From positions 1 through 64,000 of the forward strand of contig SUSW01000034.1 of assembly GCA_015063235.1 (NCBI GenBank): 64,000 nt of DNA. The letters run 5' to 3'. Position 1 is the stretch's first letter; every line of letters begins with the position of its first letter. The position numbers were made by a program, and so were the translations under genes. The notes under the pieces are model-generated. The model was not told the origin of the DNA and did no database searches. It saw only the letters and a program-made list of their open reading frames with translations. The stretch comes from Thermoplasmata archaeon (GTDB lineage: Archaea > Thermoplasmatota > Thermoplasmata > Methanomassiliicoccales > Methanomethylophilaceae). Shown here one piece after another: positions 4,213 to 58,857 of this stretch.

Positions 4213-5331
4213 TCAAACTCCTTTGGATTTCAGGTGTTTTCCCGACAGTATGTTGGTCATGATGCACAGGTCATTGATGATATCCCTGCGGGTCAGGAAG
4301 TAGATCTTTTCGTTGTTCTCCTTGTAGAAATCGACGAATCCAGCATCTTTCAGCTTCTTCATGTCATGCGATGCTAGGGGATACGAGCACCCGAGCAGCT
4401 CGGCGGCCTGACCTACGGTCAGGTCCACAGAGCACATGGATAGGAGGAGCTTTACGCAGTCCTTGTTGGAAAGCACGGACCAGGTATCCTTGATGTCGTC
4501 GGACATCCCGTCCACGAGCCCCATGACAGGTTCCAGCTGATCGGGTCCGGGCCCGTCGGCTATAGATACGTTGGAGTATGGAAGGCGGGCGCATACGGCG
4601 AAGTTCACGGGAGCATGGATGCCGGTATCGCCGGTCCTGTTATCACCGGCATCCAGGTAACGGATGTCTATGTCTCTGAATCCCAGTCTGCTGAGGATGT
4701 TTACATCCCATGTCGGACGGAACTCTCTGCTCAAAGGAAGCTCTTCGGCCAACCTGTCGCATCTGGTGAAATCCACATTGTTCACATTGGTCATGGTATG
4801 AAGGTCTTTACCTTCCCTTGTATTCAGAACGCTATAGGCATCCTCGTGGCTGAAGGACGGGTCGAATTTGTGCAGATAGTAGTTGCCGTCGAATACTATG
4901 ATCTATCCGCCGGGTCTGAGGAGCTTCTTCCATTTGGTATAGGCCTCGGACGGCTTTGTGAGATTCCACAGGCAGTTCCTGGCGATGATAACGTCAAAGG
5001 AACCATGCGGGATCTTTGGGTCCTGGACATCATCCTCTATGAATTCGATATCGGCATCGTAATTCTTTGCCAGCCCTCTTGCTGCTTCAAGCATCACAGG
5101 GTTGTTATCGATGGCATAGACCTCGTGTCCCATGAGTGCGACCTCGATGGCGACCGTTCCCACACCTGTACCCATATCAGCAATCTTGCATCTGCCTTTG
5201 TCCTTCAGGAACATGTTGAGCATGAAGCTCAGGTCCGTATTGGAATTCAGAATAAGGCGAGAGTATTCCAGGAGTCCGGGGATACGGTCCGTCCAGTACC
5301 TTTCGAATTCTTCTTCCAAATCGGAGCGCAT
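4213..5331 (-). CDS. SAM-dependent methyltransferase fused to ArsR-type HTH, with in-frame UAG
   Basis: Read through one TAG, this is a 372-aa protein. Residues 1-142 are a class I SAM methyltransferase: motif I IADMGTGVGT (50-59), acidic loop AIDNN, and IARNCLWNL. The post-motif III strand reads LLRPGG-[UAG143]-IIVFDGNYY; family members have an ordinary residue at this spot (typically LRPGGRLLVFD). Without read-through the Rossmann fold is cut. After the rest of that domain comes a winged helix (about 280-345, LTVGQAAELLGCSYPLASHDMKKL) of ArsR type. The gene diverges from the FecCD importer and may control it or modify its cargo. The final stop is TGA. The alternative, a nonsense-mutated pseudogene, is less likely because the rest of the frame is clean. 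Confidence 0.85.
4903..4905 (-). other. In-frame UAG, candidate pyrrolysine codon 143
   Basis: The minus-strand context is GGC GGA TAG ATC ATA GTA. The codon lies between the conserved LRPGG turn and the following beta strand of the methyltransferase, and the same frame runs on for 229 codons to a TGA. Confidence 0.75.
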
Positions 5332-5587
5332 GCCCTCTACACGTCCTCTTAGATTTATAATAGTAGCACCGTGCCTATTAGATTAACATATTGTTTTATA
5401 TACAACATATTATAAAAAAATTTGATAAAATCACGGTAAATACGGTAATATTTTCATTCTGTTAAGTAACAACACCGATTATTTTCGTATGCCAGCAATT
5501 TAAATTAATTTTTGAATAATACCCTATTAATAAAGGTATGTTTGGTAACACTAATCATAAAATAGTAACACACTTAATGCAGGCCCA
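5332..5587. promoter_or_regulatory. Divergent AT-rich promoter region with GTAACA boxes
   Basis: This 256-bp intergenic region separates the methyltransferase-HTH gene (minus) from the FecCD operon (plus). It is strongly AT-rich. Two direct GTAACAC repeats, at 5545-5551 and 5565-5571, are 20 bp apart and flank a TATA-like CATAAAATAG (5556-5563); a third GTAACA copy is at about 5466. The box positions fit a repressor covering the importer promoter. A TATA-like TTATATACA near 5396 could serve either direction. The binding protein is unknown; the neighbouring ArsR fusion is an obvious candidate. Confidence 0.55.
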
Positions 5588-6658
5588 ATGAGCGAAGACG
5601 ATATCCCTACAAAGTCGAATTTCGAAGCGGAATATCGGAAGATGAAGGCGAAAAGGTTAGGATTCATCATCATCTGCGTGGTGGCCTGTTTGGTATTGGC
5701 CATATTCGCATCGACGGTGGGTTCCTACCCGATCACTTTTGCGGAGGCGATCGATAGTATTCTGGATGCCATTCTCGGAAGGACTCCGGAGGACGTCACT
5801 ATCTATCACATCGTTGTGAATCTGAGAATGCCTGCCATCGTGACCGCATTGGTATGCGGTTTCGGTCTGGCGATCTGCGGTGTCTGCATGCAGAGTATGC
5901 TGAAGAACCCGCTGGCGGATTCGTATACGATGGGTATATCGTCCGGAGCTGGTTTCGGAGCTGCCCTGGCGATGATCCTCGGTATAGAGCTTATCGGCGG
6001 TTCGGGAGTTGTCGCCAACGCTTTCATTTTTTCACTTCTTCCGGCTCTGGTGATTCTTTTCCTGAGCAAGTTCCGTAACGCGACCCCTACGATGATGATT
6101 CTGTGCGGAATAGCACTGATGTATCTGTTCAATGCGGCCACGCAGCTGTTCATGCTGATAGCGGATCCGGAGGACCTTTCAGCCGTTTACAAATGGATGA
6201 TCGGTTCCGTCGACGGTACCAGCATGGAGCAGGCAGCTTTGATTCTTGCAGTGGCGGTCCTCGGAACGATATATGTCCAATACATGTCCAATCAGCTCAA
6301 CCTGATGGGTCTGGGGGACGAGAGCGCCAAGACCCTTGGAGTGGATGTTGAGAGGAAGAGGCTCATCATGCTGATGGTGGTTACGTTGGTGGCCGCGACG
6401 ATTGTCAGTTTTACCGGTATAATCGGTTTCATTGGTCTTGTCGCTCCCCACATGGTAAGGGCGATCATAGGTACGGACAACAGGTATCTGATTCCGGCAT
6501 CAGGTTTCTTCGGAGCGCTCCTGTTATTGGTGTCGCATCTGGTGGCTATGGTGATTGCCGAACCTCTGGTTTTACCGGTAGGAGTCATCACGTCCTGTAT
6601 CGGAGGCCCGCTGTTCCTGTTCCTGATATTGCGCAACTCCAAGGAGGTGTGGTCATGA
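5588..6658 (+). CDS. FecCD/BtuC-family ABC transporter permease
   Basis: A 356-aa inner-membrane permease with about ten hydrophobic segments and family marks such as LRMPAIVTALVCGFGLAICG, MQSMLKNPLADSYTMG (conserved NPLADPY-type motif), FTGIIGFIGLVAPHMVR and the last helix. It transports iron chelates, haem or corrinoids together with the next two genes. The N-terminus carries a charged cytosolic extension before the first helix. The TGA stop overlaps the ATPase start (ATGA). The substrate cannot be told from sequence; in a methylotrophic methanogen both corrinoid and iron are plausible. Confidence 0.93.
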   Translation: MSEDDIPTKSNFEAEYRKMKAKRLGFIIICVVACLVLAIFASTVGSYPITFAEAIDSILDAILGRTPEDVTIYHIVVNLRMPAIVTALVCGFGLAICGVCMQSMLKNPLADSYTMGISSGAGFGAALAMILGIELIGGSGVVANAFIFSLLPALVILFLSKFRNATPTMMILCGIALMYLFNAATQLFMLIADPEDLSAVYKWMIGSVDGTSMEQAALILAVAVLGTIYVQYMSNQLNLMGLGDESAKTLGVDVERKRLIMLMVVTLVAATIVSFTGIIGFIGLVAPHMVRAIIGTDNRYLIPASGFFGALLLLVSHLVAMVIAEPLVLPVGVITSCIGGPLFLFLILRNSKEVWS

Positions 6659-7500
6659 CGCATGGTCATGAAAGCATAGATGGGACATCCATTCTGCTCG
6701 AGCCCCGCAGCAACCAGAACGAGGTCCAGTTCAGCGTGAAGATCGAGGATATGACGTTCGGATACGATGAGAAGACGATATTGGAGCATGTGAATCTGGA
6801 GATAGACCACCCCGGTCTTCTATGTATTCTCGGTCCGAACGGAGTCGGTAAGACTACCATCGTGAAGTGCATGAACAAGCTTCTGAAGCCGAAGAGCGGA
6901 CACGTCTATCTCAACGGGAAGGACATCAGCACGATGAGCCTTCTTGAGGTGGCTCAGACCCTGGCATTCGTTCCAAATTCATCCTCATCGGCCTTCTCCA
7001 TGTCAGTGGCAGAGGCCATCCTCATGGGAAGGCATCCGCGTGCCGGGTGGACCACATCCGAACGTGACATTAAGGTCGTCGATGCGGCCATCGACCTGAT
7101 GGGTCTGCAGGAGTTCGCTTCCAGGGACATCAGGCAGCTGAGCGCAGGACAGACCCAAAGAGTGCTGATAGCACGCGGGCTTGTGCAGGAGCCGGACATC
7201 CTGATCCTGGATGAACCCACGTCAAATTTGGATGTCAAATACCAGATGGATGTGATGAGGTTCCTCAAGGCATACGCACGCGACAGGCAGATACTTGTGA
7301 TCATGGTCTGCCATGATCTGAACATAACTGCCGCCTATGCGGATCGTGTGATCCTCATGTACGGTAAGAACGTGTTCGCAGACGGGGCTCCTGCTGAGGT
7401 CCTGACGGCTGAGAATATCCAAACCGTTTACAATGTTGAAGCTGAAGTAACTGAAAGGAATGGGGTACCGCAGATTCATCTGGTACCCAAATATGATTGA
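6655..7500 (+). CDS. FecE/BtuD-family ABC transporter ATPase
   Basis: A 281-aa nucleotide-binding subunit. Walker A is GPNGVGKTT, the signature is LSAGQTQRVLIARGL, Walker B is ILILDEPTSNLD and the H-loop is VCHDLN. It energises the FecCD-type permease upstream, with which it shares an ATGA overlap; a GTG at 6649 is an alternative start. It carries an unusual N-terminal extension of about 30 residues (MTHGHESIDG...) before the ABC domain. The stop is TGA. Confidence 0.95.
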   Translation: MTHGHESIDGTSILLEPRSNQNEVQFSVKIEDMTFGYDEKTILEHVNLEIDHPGLLCILGPNGVGKTTIVKCMNKLLKPKSGHVYLNGKDISTMSLLEVAQTLAFVPNSSSSAFSMSVAEAILMGRHPRAGWTTSERDIKVVDAAIDLMGLQEFASRDIRQLSAGQTQRVLIARGLVQEPDILILDEPTSNLDVKYQMDVMRFLKAYARDRQILVIMVCHDLNITAAYADRVILMYGKNVFADGAPAEVLTAENIQTVYNVEAEVTERNGVPQIHLVPKYD

Positions 7501-7508
7501 GTGGTAAT

Positions 7509-8912
7509 ATGGCTGTAAGTAAGAATATGATCATAGTTATCGCGGCCGTTGCGGTAATCGCTGTGGTCGCTGTAGCGGCTTTCGCGGTTATGAACAACGG
7601 AGGCGGAAGCGGAGGAGACAATCCTGGAGCTAGAGTGGGCGAGGTCATCGCCGAGAAGAATTTCCCCGACACATCATCCAGGCTTTGGGTGTACGGAAAT
7701 GCGAACGAGGATGATTACATAGACGAGACCGATGTCAGCGTCCTTGAGAACATGGTCAAGGGCAGCGTCAGATCCACCCAGCTAGCCGACACCAACGTTG
7801 ACGGAAAAGTCGACCAGGCTGATGTGGACTATCTCAAAAAGATAATCAATGCGACATCATCGACGGAGATCGATGTCTACTACATCGACAACTACTTCAA
7901 GATCGCAAAGGTCTCATGGCCCGTCAAGACCATCGCCACAAGCTACTGCAGCGGACTCTATACCGCTGAGGCTACCGGACTCACACAGAAACTGATCATG
8001 GTCGACGATACGATTGCGACGTACTGGGCAAAGCTCAACAGCTATGCGGCCAAAGCATCAAGCTTCGGAGCCACCGACTCGCCCAACTATGATCTTCTGA
8101 TGAAGAGCAAAGTGGATGTATATGTTCCCGGATACTGTGACGCCAAGGCCGATGTAGAGTCCCCTACCAAGCTGAACCCTGTCGGAATCGACGTCATGTT
8201 CATGAACACCTGCGACAACAGCGGTGTCGACTATACCAACGAGTACATAGACCGTTCCATCGTGATGTTCGGATTCCTCCTCCAGGGAGATATGGAGCAG
8301 ACATACGAGTATCTGGAGTGGCACGACCACATCCTTTCCACAGTAGAGTCTGCTGCGAAGAAGATCTCGGAGAAGGACAAGGGTGCACTGATCATGTCCA
8401 GGAACTCACCCTCCTATCAGACTACTGGTGTATACAGCATCACAGGAAAGGGTAACACCAACATGATACACGCTGACTGGGCAGGATGTTATGCCGTCGG
8501 AGATCACAGCACCTACCTTCCGAAGAACTACAATGATCTCAAGATGGATACCATCTACACGGTCCTGAAGGAAACAAACGACGGCGGTCACACCACCGTT
8601 TATTGGATCGACAACGAGCATGACGGACTGCGCGGACAGAAGGATCTCGATGAGACCGTGGCAGCATGGGCCGAAGCGCTCGACAAAGTGGCACCCACGA
8701 TGCATTACCTGGGAATGGCCCGTGAGGCAGGAAACAGTCCGCTGTACGTGCTTGAGATGGTGTTCTACATGAACGTCATGCACCCTGACGCGATCGATCT
8801 TGATTACGTGGAATGTTTCTACGACTTCATCGAGAACTTCACCCTGGAGAAATCCAAGTACGAGAGTCAGATGGACATAGACAACTTCTTCAAGGACTAC
8901 GGAGAGATCTGA
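7509..8912 (+). CDS. ABC transporter substrate-binding protein with dockerin-like module
   Basis: A 467-aa surface protein. Residues 7-28 form a single hydrophobic anchor, followed by a Gly-rich linker. Residues 64-113 hold two EF-hand-like repeats, GNANEDDYIDETD and ADTNVDGKVDQAD, in the pattern of type I dockerin domains. From about 120 onward the protein looks like a periplasmic iron-complex (FecB/BtuF-type) binding domain (for example KTIATSYCSGLYTAEATGL, KSKVDVYVPGYCDAK). It would capture a chelate outside the cell for the permease and ATPase immediately upstream. The dockerin-like part could bind calcium or a cohesin partner; none is seen in this window. Confidence 0.82.
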   Translation: MAVSKNMIIVIAAVAVIAVVAVAAFAVMNNGGGSGGDNPGARVGEVIAEKNFPDTSSRLWVYGNANEDDYIDETDVSVLENMVKGSVRSTQLADTNVDGKVDQADVDYLKKIINATSSTEIDVYYIDNYFKIAKVSWPVKTIATSYCSGLYTAEATGLTQKLIMVDDTIATYWAKLNSYAAKASSFGATDSPNYDLLMKSKVDVYVPGYCDAKADVESPTKLNPVGIDVMFMNTCDNSGVDYTNEYIDRSIVMFGFLLQGDMEQTYEYLEWHDHILSTVESAAKKISEKDKGALIMSRNSPSYQTTGVYSITGKGNTNMIHADWAGCYAVGDHSTYLPKNYNDLKMDTIYTVLKETNDGGHTTVYWIDNEHDGLRGQKDLDETVAAWAEALDKVAPTMHYLGMAREAGNSPLYVLEMVFYMNVMHPDAIDLDYVECFYDFIENFTLEKSKYESQMDIDNFFKDYGEI

Positions 8913-24711: not shown

Positions 24712-27700
24712 ATGGTAGAGAAAGTAGATAGGACATACAGTAAGGATGAAGTCATGGGCATGATGGAGCCGCTAATCTCCACATGGTTCAATGAGAAGTA
24801 TGATGACCTCACCATCCCTCAGGCGAAGGCCATCCCCGTCATCCATCAGAGGCGTAATGTTCTGGTGTCCTCTCCGACAGGTTCGGGAAAGACCCTTACG
24901 GCGTTCACCAGCATCATCAATGAGCTGACGCGCTATGCCAGGGAAGGTACTTTGGAGGAGCGTGTCTACTGTATCTACGTATCTCCGCTGAAAGCTTTGG
25001 GAAACGATGTCAACCGCAATCTTAACACCCCGTTGGCTGAGATGAGGGAGGTCGCGGACAGACACGGTATGAACGTTCCGAAGATCACAGTCGCCGTGAG
25101 GTCCGGAGACACATCGCAGGCGGACAGGCAGAAGATGGTCCGCCATCCGCCGCATATCCTTATCACGACGCCGGAGAGCCTCGCGCTGATCCTGGCAGCC
25201 CCCAAGTTCAAAGACGCTTTCAAGAACGTGGAGTGGGTCATTCTGGATGAGATCCATGACATCTGCGATTCCAAGAGGGGAGCGTTCCTCTCGCTGACAC
25301 TGGAACGCCTCAGGAACCATTGCGAGAAGGATTTCGTCCGTATCGGGCTATCCGCAACACTGGCACCCATCGATGCAATAGCCTCCTACCTTGTAGGATG
25401 CAACGACGACGGGTCGATTCGGGATGTGGCCCTGATAGAATCGGGATCGAAGAAGACATTGGATCTGCAGGTCATATGTCCGACCAATGATCTCACAACG
25501 CTTTCATCAGATATCGTCAATTCGATGATGTATGATACTCTAAAGGAGCTCATCGAACAGCATGAGACTACATTGGTCTTCACCAACACCAGATCGGGTG
25601 CGGAGAGTGTCGTCTACAAGCTGAAGGAGAGAGGGCTCGATAACATAGAGGTACACCACAGTTCCTTGGGAAAGGAGATCAGAATGGATGTGGAGGAGCG
25701 TTTGAAGCACGGTGAGATCAAGTGCGTCGTATCTTCCACATCGCTGGAGCTCGGTATCGATATCGGTTCCGTCGATCTAGTGTGCCAGATAGGTTCCCCC
25801 AAGTCGGTTGCCAAAGGTCTGCAGAGGATCGGTAGGAGCGGTCACAGTTTCGGAAAGGTGGCCAAGGGAAGGCTGCTGGTGTTCGATCCGGACGATCTCG
25901 TGGAATGTGCTGTCATGTGCCGTGCGGCCCATAGGGGTGACATCGACCGTGTCGGTATACCCGAGAACTGCCTGGATGTCCTATCGCAGACCATCGTCGG
26001 AATGAGTCTGGATAACAGATGGGATATAGATGAGGCGTTCAGTCTCGTAAAGCATTCGTACTGCTACCGCAACCTGACCAAGGAGAGCTTCATGCAGGTC
26101 ATACGCTACCTGGGAAGCAAGGATGACTTCGAGGGAGTGTACTCCAAGATATGGTATGATGAGGAGGAGAACGTCTTTGGGAAGAAGAAGGGCTCCCGCA
26201 TGATCTATTTCATGAATCTCGGAACGATCCCGGAGGAAGCCAACTATCGCGTCATCACCAATCACGGTTCGATCGCCGGAGAGCTGTCCGAGAAATTCGT
26301 CGAGAGGCTGTCCCCCAGGGACGTCTTCGTTCTGGGAGGGCGTTCGTTCGAGTTCGTCCGTTCCAAGGGGATGACCGCATACGTGAAGGAGGCCAACGGA
26401 AGGAAGCCGACCGTCCCTTCATGGGCGGGAGAGATGCTGCCGAGGAGTTTCGACCTCTCCATGGATGTTGCTGTCTTCAGGCGTGAGATGTCCTAGAAGA
26501 TACAGGAGGATGAGCGCAAGGCGATCAAGGAGCTCTCGGAGGAGTTCGATATCGACGAGGGTTCCGCCAGGAGCATATTCTCGTACTTCAAGGAGCAGGA
26601 AGCGGTCGCCGGATTCATCCCCGACGACAGGAAGCTGGCCGTGGAGGAGTATGTGGATCCGTCCGGCAATCAGAAGCTGGTGTTCCACTTCCCGTTCGGA
26701 CGCAGGGTCAACGATGCCCTTTCGCGTGCATACGCATACAGATTATCTAACATGCTCGGAGCAAACGTCTCCGTCACCATATCGGATGACAGCTTCATGC
26801 TGGGATGCCCTAGGACATTTGACCTGGATAAGCTCCACGGGCTCATAAGAGGAGGGGAGCTGGAGACCATACTGAGGAAGTCGCTCAAGGACTCCGAGAT
26901 ATTCAAGCTTAGGTTCAGGCATACCGCTGCCAGGAGCTTCATGATCCTCAGGAACTACATGGGCCGCCCCATATCCGTTAACAGGCAGCAGATAAGGTCA
27001 ACGTACCTTCTGGAGGCCTTGGGCAACATGGAAGGTGTGCCGGTCATCGAGGAGACATACAGAGAGGTCATGGAGGACGACATGGACATCAAGAATGCCA
27101 AGTACGTCCTGGATCTGATAGACATCGGGGATATGGAGCTGAACATCATCCGTTACACCGGCACTCCGTCTCCGTTCGCACATTCCGCCATCCTGTCAGG
27201 ATTCTCCGACATTGTACTGATGGAGGACCGTTCGGCCCTGCTGAGGGAGCTTCACAGGAAGGTGTTGAGCCGTGCGCTGGGAGATTCGGTCAGCGAATTC
27301 GAGTTCAACGAGGATCAGATCGTCCCATATTACGCTCAGAAGCCCGTCCGCATAGTGTCCAAGGATGACATCCCCAAGCTCCTGAAGCAGACGGGCCCCC
27401 TCCAGGCACTGCGCGAACGCGGAAGGAACATCTACACCTACACGGACGAGGACAGAAAGGTCGTGGACGTGTGGATCAGGGAGCTGATGCATACCGGAGA
27501 GATAGGCACCGTGTTCCTCGACGAACCCCACATCATGGTCTCGGAGGACATCCCGGATTACGCCGCGGCCACCAGGAAGGACCGCGAGCTGAACGATACG
27601 GACCGTGACGTCTACGGATGCATAGGCGTCAACACCCCCATGTCGGAGGTAGTGGAGAAGCTGGAGATCAGCGAGGACATGGTGATAAGATCGATAAGGA

Positions 27701-30072
27701 AGCTGGAATCGATGTATCTGATATCCAGGACCGATCTGTCAGCCAACAAATGGCTGTTCTCCCGTGTGGAGTATCCGGAGAAGGATGCCAACGAGGCCAC
27801 CGACCGCATCGTATCCAGGTTCCTCGAGTGTTTCGCACCGTCCACCGTGCAGGAAGTCTCTTACGCTCTATCCATAACGGAAGAGGATGCCCATAAGGCA
27901 TTGGAGTCCTTGACGGCCAACGAGGTCGTCGTGAAGGGAAGGTTCCTGGTCTCCGAGAACGATCAGTACATGCTCAAGATCGACCATATGAGGCTAAAGG
28001 CGGGACGCGATAACGTGTTCAGCTTCGATGCGGTCGAGAGGTACAGGCTGACCAAGGGTCAGCATTTCGATTCTATAACCGATTACTTCGACTTCCACGG
28101 ATCCGCAGGAAGCGAACTCGATGTCTACAACAGGGTGGATAACTTCGATATCAACGAATGGTACGACATGCGCAGGGACGGAATAATCCAGCTGGGCCGT
28201 TTCGTCAGGGGCAAGGTAAGGTTCGTCATGAGCGATGATGCCGACCGTTATGCGGCCATCAAGGTCGATGAGACATCCCCAGAGGATCTGGATCTCCTCA
28301 ATGTCATAGACGGCATGGGCAGCGCCACACTCAGGCAGCTCGTCGCTGAGACAGGCAAGGACAAAGAGGCCGTTCGTGAATCGATCATGCGTTTGGACAG
28401 GTCGCTCCGCATCATCAGAGCATTCGGCGAGAAGGAGGAATGGGGAACGGAGAACACGTACGAGGTGTTCTATCCGAACGAGCCAGAAGGCGATCCCGCA
28501 AAGGATCTGCTGGCCAAGGCCATCAAGGCCTACGGTCCCATCCCTGCGATGGCCCTGCGCTACATGATCGGCATCCCCTTGGATATGGTCGAAGAGCTTG
28601 CGGCGGAGGTCGGAGCCAAGACCGTCATCGTAGGAGACGGACATACCCAGATGTATGTGATGGAGGACGAAATACCCTTGTTGGATTCCGTCAGGGAGAC
28701 GGAGTACAGCATCCGTATACTTTCGCTGTTCGATCCAGATCTGGGCTCTAAATGGGCCGAGATAGCGGCCCGCTACGGGGACAAATGGATCTATCCCCTG
28801 GTCAAGGGATCCGTCATCGTGGGGGCACTGGAGATCTGGGAGATGTCCGGATGCGTGGAGATACGTTCCATGGATATGGACGACCCGTCGATGCTGAAGG
28901 AGGTCCTTGCTGCCGTGGATCACATGATGGGATTCTACCATCAGAAAGGGATAGAGATCGTCCGCATAAGAGAGGTGCTGAGCACAGACGCTGCAGAGCT
29001 GGATGATGAGAAGAAAGCCATACTCGAGGAGTCCGGATACGTATTTGTCAACGGATTCTTCGCCAAAGGAAGGTTCGATCCCTGGACTATGACCGAGGAT
29101 CAGATGATATCCTATGTGTTCTCGAAGCAGAGGGTGGGCAAGACCAATAAGTATGGTACGGTGGCTGAGTGCGTGGCCGTCAGAGGATACATACGCGGAG
29201 ACCAAGAGATAATGACTCGTGTCCAGGAGAAGACCATCATGAAGAAGCAGATGGAGAAGGGCTATCTGGTGAAGATGTCGCTGGTCCCCGGATATCAGGG
29301 ATATACGGACATGGAGCGTGCATCTATGTTCCGTGCCCACAAGGGTTATGTCCCTGTGGACGATGCAAAGACGATCGTCAACCTCATCGCGAAGAAGCAG
29401 CCCATATCCAAGAAGCAGATCATCCTCGATTCTCCGCTGTCTCAGGAACGTACGACGGAGATATTCAACGAGCTCAACAAGAACTCCTACATCTATCAGG
29501 ATTCCGACTCCAACTACAGCATCGTGCCTGAGAGCGATATGACTCAGGCCGAGGCCACCAAGGAGATTGCCAAGATGCACTTCCGCGATTTCGGGATATT
29601 CTCCGCAGAGGACATGTCACTCTTCCTGGCCAGCAGGATGTCCGTTGCGAGAGCTGTCCTGAGGGAGCTAGAGGACGAGGGATTCCTGAAGAAGGGATTC
29701 TTCATCAAGGACGACCCTACGCTCAGATGGATGATAGCAGAGGATGTCGGTAACATACGCAGGAGAGCAGGTGACTCTTTCATTCTCAACTCGCAGGACA
29801 ACCTCAACGTGTACCTCAGGGATATGATCAAGTCCGATACCGGGACCACCAGATCCGTCATAATTGCCAACAACAAGGTGATAGGGTCGTTCGTAGGGAA
29901 GATATGCCCGTCGGGTGCGAAGGTGGAGGAGTTCGAAGGCAACGACCGTGCTTCCCGTATGATGAAGGAGGCCGCCCAATCCGTCGGCATAAGGCTGGAC
30001 ACCCAGAGACAGAGGGACGATGAGGATTGGGACGTGTCCGAGTTCTACACCAAGGTTAACATGGGAGCATAA
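24712..30072 (+). CDS. lhr: Lhr-type superfamily 2 helicase with in-frame UAG
   Basis: Read through one TAG this is a 1786-aa helicase of the long Lhr family. RecA1 has SSPTGSGKT (53-61), DEIH (179-182) and SAT (214-216); RecA2 has a TNTRSGAESVVYKL block and the QRIGRSGHS motif VI. The winged-helix region runs through PSWAGEMLPRSFDLSMDVAVFRREMS (about 569-594), then UAG595, then KIQEDERKAIKEL and the family block FHFPFGRRVNDALSRA. The last 150 residues resemble the AlkZ-like end of bacterial Lhr (NSQDNLNVYLRDMI ... NKVIGSFVGK). The paralogue at 47604-50348 aligns across the UAG without a gap. The final stop is TAA. Role: DNA repair or RNA/DNA unwinding. Confidence 0.88.
26494..26496 (+). other. 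In-frame UAG, candidate pyrrolysine codon 595
   Basis: The context is ATG TCC TAG AAG ATA CAG. The frame continues for 1191 codons to a TAA. Lhr homology is continuous on both sides of the codon. Confidence 0.78.
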
Positions 30073-32350: not shown

Positions 32351-32381
32351 GAGTAACACGATTTAGCATTTCGTGTTACTC
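32351..32381. terminator. 11-bp perfect inverted repeat between tRNA-Thr and thiC
   Basis: GAGTAACACGA and TCGTGTTACTC pair perfectly across a 9-nt loop. On the minus strand, 11 nt past the thiC stop, it is followed by AAATTTTCC, fitting a terminator. The half-site also matches the GTAACAC boxes found at two metal-related promoters in this window. Confidence 0.55.
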
Positions 32382-57813: not shown

Positions 57814-57891
57814 CGTCATCTCCCACTGTTACATCGGGAATGCAATCTTGGTTCTGTTTTTATCACATGATTGCGTTCACGATTCGAGAGA

Positions 57892-58857
57892 ATGGAGATA
57901 AGGGTCTACAACGATTTCATCAGCACTCCGGTCAACAAAGGGCGTGTGTACGAGATGAAACTTGATGACGGCTTCGCAAAGGTCACCAATTTCATCTTCG
58001 AGAAGTACGGGTTCGTCATCAATTACTATGACATGGAGACATCATTTTTCACAAACCAGGACAGAGTGGGTGAGATGGACTACATCCTGTTCAATGCTAC
58101 TCTGTTCGGAAGATTCGTCGGCAGATTCGATGAGGCAACTGTTTCAAAGCTGCCGGGAACGGGATTGATGCATCGCCCCTCCGATAAAAGGAGTTACGTG
58201 AATCTGCCTTGCAAAGGATATGTCGGATTGGGCATCGGTTTCGATTACAAGAATTTTAAGTTCTTCGATCCCGGTATGGAGATGGCTGGGTCGGATTTCC
58301 TGAGAGCGATCGAATCTAAGTACAGGGCGGACGGTCTGTCCGTCTTCTGTTTAGATGATGATGTAATGATGGAGATGTATGCGCTGCAGGCGATTCTGGA
58401 CAATCCGGATTCTATCGATGATGACAAAGTATCGGCAATAGTGTCCGATATGCTGCGCAGATTGTACAGAGTGAAGGAGATTAGATTCACCGATGTTTCA
58501 TCAGAGGCGGAACCTCTTCTCGAGGATGCTGTGTACAGCCGTATTATGTCCGATCTCAGCAAAGCGCCTCGGATAGACGAGGTCTGCAGCGAGCTTAACA
58601 CTGTCAAGTATTAGGTGAACAGACGTTTCAAGATGACCTATGGGGAAACACCTTATTCTATGCAGAGGCACCACCGTCTTCTCAAGGCGGGGAGTATGCT
58701 GATGCTCGGTGAGCGGAACATGGGGGCCGTGGCCAAAGCCATAGGATACGCCACCGAGAACAAGTTCGCTACTGCCTTTAGGAAGGAGTTCGGTTTCAGA
58801 CCAAAGCATTTTGACAGAGAGTTCGGGAATCCGCTAACACAGAATCGGAACGTATGA
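57892..58857 (+). CDS. AraC-family regulator with in-frame UAG
   Basis: Read through one TAG this is a 321-aa AraC-type regulator. Residues 1-210 form a sensory domain I do not recognise. The C-terminal 95 residues are the double helix-turn-helix: IDEVCSELNTVKY-[UAG241]-VNRRFKMTYGETPYSM, HHRLLKAGSMLML, then GAVAKAIGYATENKFATAFRKEFGFRPKHF. The second half is unmistakable AraC. The UAG sits in the first recognition helix, where relatives have an ordinary residue just before the conserved L in S-x-x-x-L-x-R-x-F. It precedes two ABC exporters/importers and probably controls them. It looks bacterial in origin. The final stop is TGA. Confidence 0.88.
58612..58614 (+). other. In-frame UAG, candidate pyrrolysine codon 241
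   Basis: The context is AAG TAT TAG GTG AAC AGA. It falls inside the first helix-turn-helix of the AraC domain, and the frame continues for 80 sense codons to TGA. Confidence 0.8.

Follow-up and report, generated by a model that had tools for sequence, protein, structure and literature searches.

A UAG codon shared between distant relatives in a methyltransferase/winged-helix fusion gene beside a FecCD-type importer of Methanomethylophilaceae

A gene within a 64,000-nucleotide stretch of a Thermoplasmata archaeon genome (contig SUSW01000034.1, positions 1 to 64,000; hereafter the window) contains a single in-frame UAG, and a distant relative has UAG at the same codon. We consider it probable that this codon, number 143, stands for pyrrolysine and that the gene yields a 372-residue methyltransferase/ArsR-like protein, which most likely controls a divergent importer. 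What is unusual is that UAG 143 is shared over a long distance, whereas all seven of the other non-methylamine UAGs checked in this genome are private. It is a well-supported example of a UAG at one codon common to distant species, outside the methylamine methyltransferases, in a probable regulator. The features concerned are listed below.

4213..5331, minus strand: methyltransferase/ArsR-like winged-helix fusion, 372 aa, complete only if UAG 143 is a sense codon
4903..4905, minus strand: in-frame UAG, codon 143, directly behind LLRPGG; TAG at the same codon in G087:C41
4843..5196, minus strand: residues 46-163, core of the class I SAM methyltransferase, which includes the UAG (PF13847/PF08241; AlphaFold strand 138-149)
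4330..4455, minus strand: ArsR-family winged helix, residues 293-334 (HTH_5; family profile matches SmtB and CzrA)
5545..5571, plus strand: tandem GTAACAC boxes (5545-5551 and 5565-5571, starts 20 bp apart), candidate operator
5588..6658, plus strand: permease of the FecCD-type importer, oriented away from the fusion gene (PF01032, 286.8 bits)
6649..7500, plus strand: importer ATPase (PF00005; heme, corrinoid and F420-0 ABC models all below cut-off)
7497..8912, plus strand: membrane-anchored substrate-binding protein, 471 aa, with dockerin-like repeats (Dockerin_1; start probably ATG 7509)

The fusion gene lies on the minus strand, where positions 5331 to 4213 form a clean frame of 372 codons that ends in TGA and is broken only by the TAG at 4905-4903; the frame of the plus strand is meaningless here. 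The sequence-only reading had placed this UAG between LLRPGG and IIVFDGNYY with a clean frame on both sides, which we confirm for the minus strand (LLRPGG-O-IIVFDGNYY). Under translation table 11 the region is called as two ORFs, of 142 aa (4903-5331) and 193 aa (4213-4794), and the frame is continuous only with UAG 143 as sense. Codon use is coding-like on either side of the UAG (mean codon scores of 0.17 and 0.18). Open extensions of at least 229 aa behind a TGA or TAA stop are uncommon, occurring in 9 of 258 genes (3.5%). By eye, a ribosome-binding-like GAGGG precedes codon 1 of the fusion, and no obvious ribosome-binding sequence precedes the internal ATG at 4794. A search 3' of the UAG for a read-through RNA element revealed no excess stability in either of the two UAG-143 genomes (z of 0.24 and 0.05), though read-through may not require such a structure.

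The domain assignment is firm for the methyltransferase and clear, at the family level, for the winged helix. Pfam methyltransferase families match up to residue 163, and scores above the gathering threshold, a Gly-rich SAM motif and a Rossmann fold place this part among class I SAM methyltransferases; D52, G54 and G58 are invariant in 20 sequences. The C-terminal winged helix that had been proposed from the sequence was recovered as HTH_5, at a marginal 21.9 bits for the whole protein and 22.8 bits for the C-terminal part alone (cut-off 22). A profile of 20 family members nevertheless matches SmtB (7.5e-18) and CzrA (5e-16). In the AlphaFold model (mean pLDDT 83.4, pTM 0.64) one strand, 138-149, crosses codon 143. 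The earlier proposal is supported that read-through is required both to complete the methyltransferase sheet and to attach the winged helix. In a class I fold, the strand behind LLRPGG would start at the far end of the sheet from the SAM pocket. A Foldseek search with the model retrieved methyltransferases, among them Rv2258c, in which a methyltransferase is combined with a winged-helix-like domain. More specific models remained below their cut-offs: the fusion scored 30.9 bits with the NCBIfam ArsR/SmtB metalloregulator model (cut-off 55) and 57.8 bits with NF043040, which describes the corrinoid protein-associated methyltransferase CpaM (cut-off 180). Judged against the canonical pattern, ArsR/SmtB metal-ligand motifs are not clearly present in the fusion; Cys292 and Cys315 are kept in the pair of proteins with UAG 143, and Cys300 is not.

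UAG appears to be a sense codon throughout the sampled genome (1,782,499 bases in 54 contigs, 87% complete). Its pyl cassette is complete: a tRNA-Pyl with anticodon CUA adjoins pylS on contig C47, and the PylS, PylB, PylC and PylD models all score above their cut-offs. Its mttB and two mtmB genes each read through one UAG. At least one MtmB gene with a single TAG was present in all six genomes checked, and the four genomes with UAG-carrying fusions all have both PylS and a one-TAG MtmB; PylS was found in 92 of the 147 genomes of the order. We also took a census of stop codons in 616,710 bases, using a simple codon-score script rather than a trained gene caller. The 474 genes called end in TGA (419), TAA (41) or TAG (14). 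Eleven of the 14 TAG-ended genes extend in frame by at least 80 aa, and the other three by 7-12 aa. Extensions of at least 40 aa with a score above 0.05 follow 10 of 14 TAG codons, as against 18 of 419 TGA and 3 of 41 TAA codons. UAG is thus read through, almost certainly as pyrrolysine, as the pyl genes suggest. Given this census, the fusion gene is less exceptional than the sequence-only reading had implied, UAG being broadly sense in the lineage.

Homologues of the fusion (E<=1e-15) occur in 43 of the 147 genomes, counting the window's own. We aligned 30 loci, including the window gene and leaving out further matches without loci. Just two of them, the window gene and G087:C41, have TAG at codon 143; in the remaining 28 loci the codon stands for S, T, A, E, I, H, F, Y, R or K, which bears out the expectation of an ordinary residue at this position in homologues. 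The G087 gene, from the same genus, is the nearest homologue found and the only close one among the genomes searched. It is 47% identical over 372 columns (48% by search). In a tree of 24 rows the two genes group together with 100/100 support, at a distance of about 1.45 changes per column. Identity is 49% before the UAG and 46% after it, with dN of 0.40 and 0.53, respectively; dS is saturated, being not computable before the UAG and 2.8 after it. Frame decay, which would have spoken against read-through, was not seen in this nearest relative. Because an independent genome has this UAG too, chance and sequencing error can be ruled out. Another pair of fusions, in G073 and G088 (50.5% identical, in a separate 100/100 clade), have in common a TAG that aligns elsewhere (codons 99 and 96, counted within the stretches matched). 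Since the two fusion clades have UAG at different codons, we regard them as two independent gains. G087 also codes for a second fusion paralogue (G087:C207, locus L064), which has no UAG and is clustered with a stand-alone methyltransferase.

To put the shared codon in perspective, we considered the other non-methylamine UAG codons of this genome, all seven of which are private as far as tested; the nearest relatives compared were 36-87% identical and came from genomes of the genus or family. TAG-bearing paralogues of about 34% identity fell outside the comparison of positions (G085 and G089 for the PRK13795-like protein, G085 for the helicase). Two of the genes lie in the window.

24712-30072, plus strand: Lhr-type helicase, 1786 aa, with one UAG at codon 595 (26494-26496)
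57871-58857, plus strand: AraC-type HTH protein with UAG at codon 248 (58612-58614), within the HTH_18 match (residues 239-316)

No TAG was present among the helicase orthologues listed in 30 other genomes of the genus, and the site of codon 595 is S, Q, D or A in nine aligned orthologues, so this UAG looks like a recent private gain. Likewise, no TAG was found among the matches listed for the LeuA/homocitrate-synthase-like protein (27 other genomes with a match), in the one match of a 469-aa protein of contig C16 or in the two matches of a protein of contig C1. One close orthologue of the PRK13795-like protein (G100) and one of four matches of the DnaJ-like protein (G087) have TAG, both at a different codon. 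Relatives of the AraC-type gene have their TAGs at other codons as well. Within the genus, 5 of 11 near-full-length copies of the AraC-type family have at least one TAG, and the copies of G086 and G082 have it in the same alignment column; the alignment was made without L113 and four hits lacking loci, of which G080:C58 was checked separately. G082 gave no PylS hit and has PylB at a contig start, its PylS having probably been lost to an assembly gap.

The sharing of UAG 143, set against seven private controls, hints at selection. However, selection on UAG 143 is not proven, because the residue at this position varies across the family. We estimate that an old neutral UAG at an average site would survive 1.45 changes per column in roughly one case in four. 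Moreover, recent gains look private whatever the rate of loss, and a recent gain is indistinguishable from fast loss; the private controls therefore do not prove selection.

The neighbourhood of the fusion is recurrent. Of 25 fusion regions, the window included, 22 have the FecCD permease, and the other three end at contig ends. The ATPase and the binding protein each occur in 21 regions, and 15 regions have a stand-alone methyltransferase. The survey overlooked one fusion ORF (L054) that runs off a contig end. In G087 all these genes lie on one strand: the fusion comes first, followed by the binding-protein gene, an ORF of 151 aa and the genes for permease and ATPase, which share 47% and 45% identity, respectively, with their counterparts in the window. 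Five bacterial relatives (L092-L095 and L097) have the methyltransferase part; tblastn with the window's importer found no FecCD in these loci; three of them gave hits to ATPases, all distant.

The neighbouring genes constitute an importer of the FecBCD class, in which the FecCD permease and the ATPase are accompanied by a siderophore/heme-type binding protein. The profile of the binding-protein family matches IsdE (1.2e-07), CeuE (about 1e-06) and, weakly, dockerins, which points to an importer of the iron-chelate/heme/corrinoid class. The divergent partner had been taken for a metal or corrinoid importer. The FecCD-type importer stands, but corrinoid specificity is unsupported: the best solved-structure matches of the binding protein are heme and enterochelin binders, and the corrinoid models score below their cut-offs (BtuC PRK03784, 197.6 bits against 334; BtuD PRK03695, 128.1 bits against 281). 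The predicted structure of the binding protein was set aside (mean pLDDT 51). An N-terminal membrane anchor together with dockerin-like repeats is a feature of siderophore/heme-type binding proteins in these methanogens, both in the window (7497-8912) and in related loci.

The GTAACAC boxes end 16 bases before the permease start. Nowhere else in the 616,710 bases do two exact copies lie on one strand within 60 bp of each other, and there are 46 single copies. Two copies in the intergenic region would rarely arise by chance (P of 0.0012 by first-order shuffles), although the word was chosen after it had been seen. No pairs of GTAACA[CT] 6-40 bp apart were found in 25 related loci (L051-L075). 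Given this lack of recurrent pairs, the operator is not established. Elsewhere in the window, at 32353-32379 between tRNA-Thr and thiC, an inverted repeat GTAACAC...GTGTTAC (32353/32373), unrelated to the boxes, is perhaps a terminator-like hairpin.

Taken in its simplest reading, pyrrolysine 143 is an ordinary structural residue in an enzyme-regulator of the importer. tRNA-Pyl and PylS would translate the UAG as pyrrolysine, giving an N-terminal class I SAM methyltransferase joined to a C-terminal ArsR-like winged helix. As the gene order and the winged helix suggest, the fusion would most likely control the divergent importer, whose ligand may be a metal chelate, heme or corrinoid. The methyltransferase domain might sense the ligand or SAM/SAH, act enzymatically on what is imported, or do both. 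Pyrrolysine is probably tolerated rather than catalytic, because the position behind the LLRPGG turn is variable. The same cluster leaves some room, albeit little, for a protein that is mainly an enzyme acting on an imported chelate or corrinoid, with the winged helix as a dimerisation module. The paralogous stand-alone methyltransferase in 15 of 25 regions and the domain combination of Rv2258c would fit such an enzyme, but the winged helix best matches DNA-binding ArsR/SmtB repressors and the window gene is divergent from the importer.

If UAG 143 were a working stop, the gene would give two products, a methyltransferase fragment of 142 aa and a winged-helix protein of 193 aa, as table 11 has it, and in most archaea the release factor does recognise UAG. 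We regard this as very improbable: the fragment would be without the strands behind LLRPGG, the other 28 aligned loci have a sense codon, no obvious ribosome-binding sequence serves the second ORF, and the sampled genome hardly uses TAG as a stop. A pseudogene or a sequencing error usually shows itself by just such a lone stop in a frame that is intact elsewhere; we give this explanation next to no credence, since an independent assembly has the UAG too and the protein sequence is constrained on both sides of it. The split gene, the pseudogene and the sequencing error were thus rejected on account of the conserved UAG, its constrained flanks and the rarity of TAG stops. The UAG might instead act as a switch, with the full-length regulator made only when pyrrolysine is plentiful and a truncated one otherwise, so that the importer would track the methylamine/pyrrolysine supply. 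The UAG does precede the DNA-binding domain, as does the other UAG of the G073/G088 clade, and it is kept across 47% identity while the seven other sites are private. We nevertheless do not favour a switch and think it unlikely, because UAG is sense, seemingly constitutively, throughout the sampled genome; UAGs are not limited to regulators, and the common UAG could be chance retention. Similarly, there is a slim chance that selection has given pyrrolysine a function in the DNA-binding regulators of these archaea: a complete regulator would be made or not according to the pyrrolysine supply, which would couple metal/corrinoid uptake to methylamine metabolism. UAGs in two fusion clades, the codon common to two AraC-type regulators and the private state of the seven other codons would all fit selection of this kind.

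Compared with known ArsR/SmtB metalloregulators (SmtB, CzrA, NmtR), the fusion shares the winged-helix profile but differs in its N-terminal methyltransferase, in having no evident canonical metal-ligand pattern and in its score below the NCBIfam cut-off. The importer resembles FecBCD/BtuCDF-class systems in its permease, ATPase and heme/siderophore-type binding protein, and is unlike them in the dockerin-like repeats of the latter. The regulator SahR may have a methyltransferase-like domain. As described in the available text of PMC4239095, SahR is likewise an ArsR-family protein with a SAM/SAH link, responding to SAH, and offers a possible precedent for sensing; it differs in governing a proteobacterial methionine regulon, and the likeness is one of description.

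Widespread use of UAG in the order is already published; what is new here is this fusion gene. An archaeal genetic code in which all TAG codons stand for pyrrolysine was reportedly described in Science in 2025. According to the available parts of Borrel et al. 2014 (PMC4153887), 1.6% of stops in M. alvus are TAG, and 16 pyrrolysine proteins are predicted beyond the methylamine enzymes; those with in-frame UAG include one of 262 aa described as a putative methyltransferase and another described as an Rv0623-like transcription factor. For ISO4-H5, the available parts of PMC5011839 give 46 genes with in-frame amber codons. Our case is like these in belonging to the same order, with a complete pyl cassette, rare TAG stops and non-methylamine UAG genes. 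It is unlike them in that Table 7 of PMC4153887 and the available text of PMC5011839 name no methyltransferase/winged-helix fusion, nor is a single UAG site conserved between distant species a topic in the available text of either. No description of such a fusion was found in the literature, as covered mostly by listings. The gene offers a good test case for whether pyrrolysine outside methanogenesis enzymes is tolerated or selected. Standard gene calling splits such UAG proteins and thereby hides a recurrent regulator-importer cluster. Further probable UAG genes of the genome from which the window comes are a TPR protein (L043:10357-11958), a TerB-domain protein (L038:4807-7179), DnaJ-like, LeuA/homocitrate-synthase-like and PAPS-reductase-like proteins (L133:11762-12529, L121:4514-6085 and L044:6857-8860, respectively) and two genes with no family match (L116:8191-8919 and L047:17194-18603).
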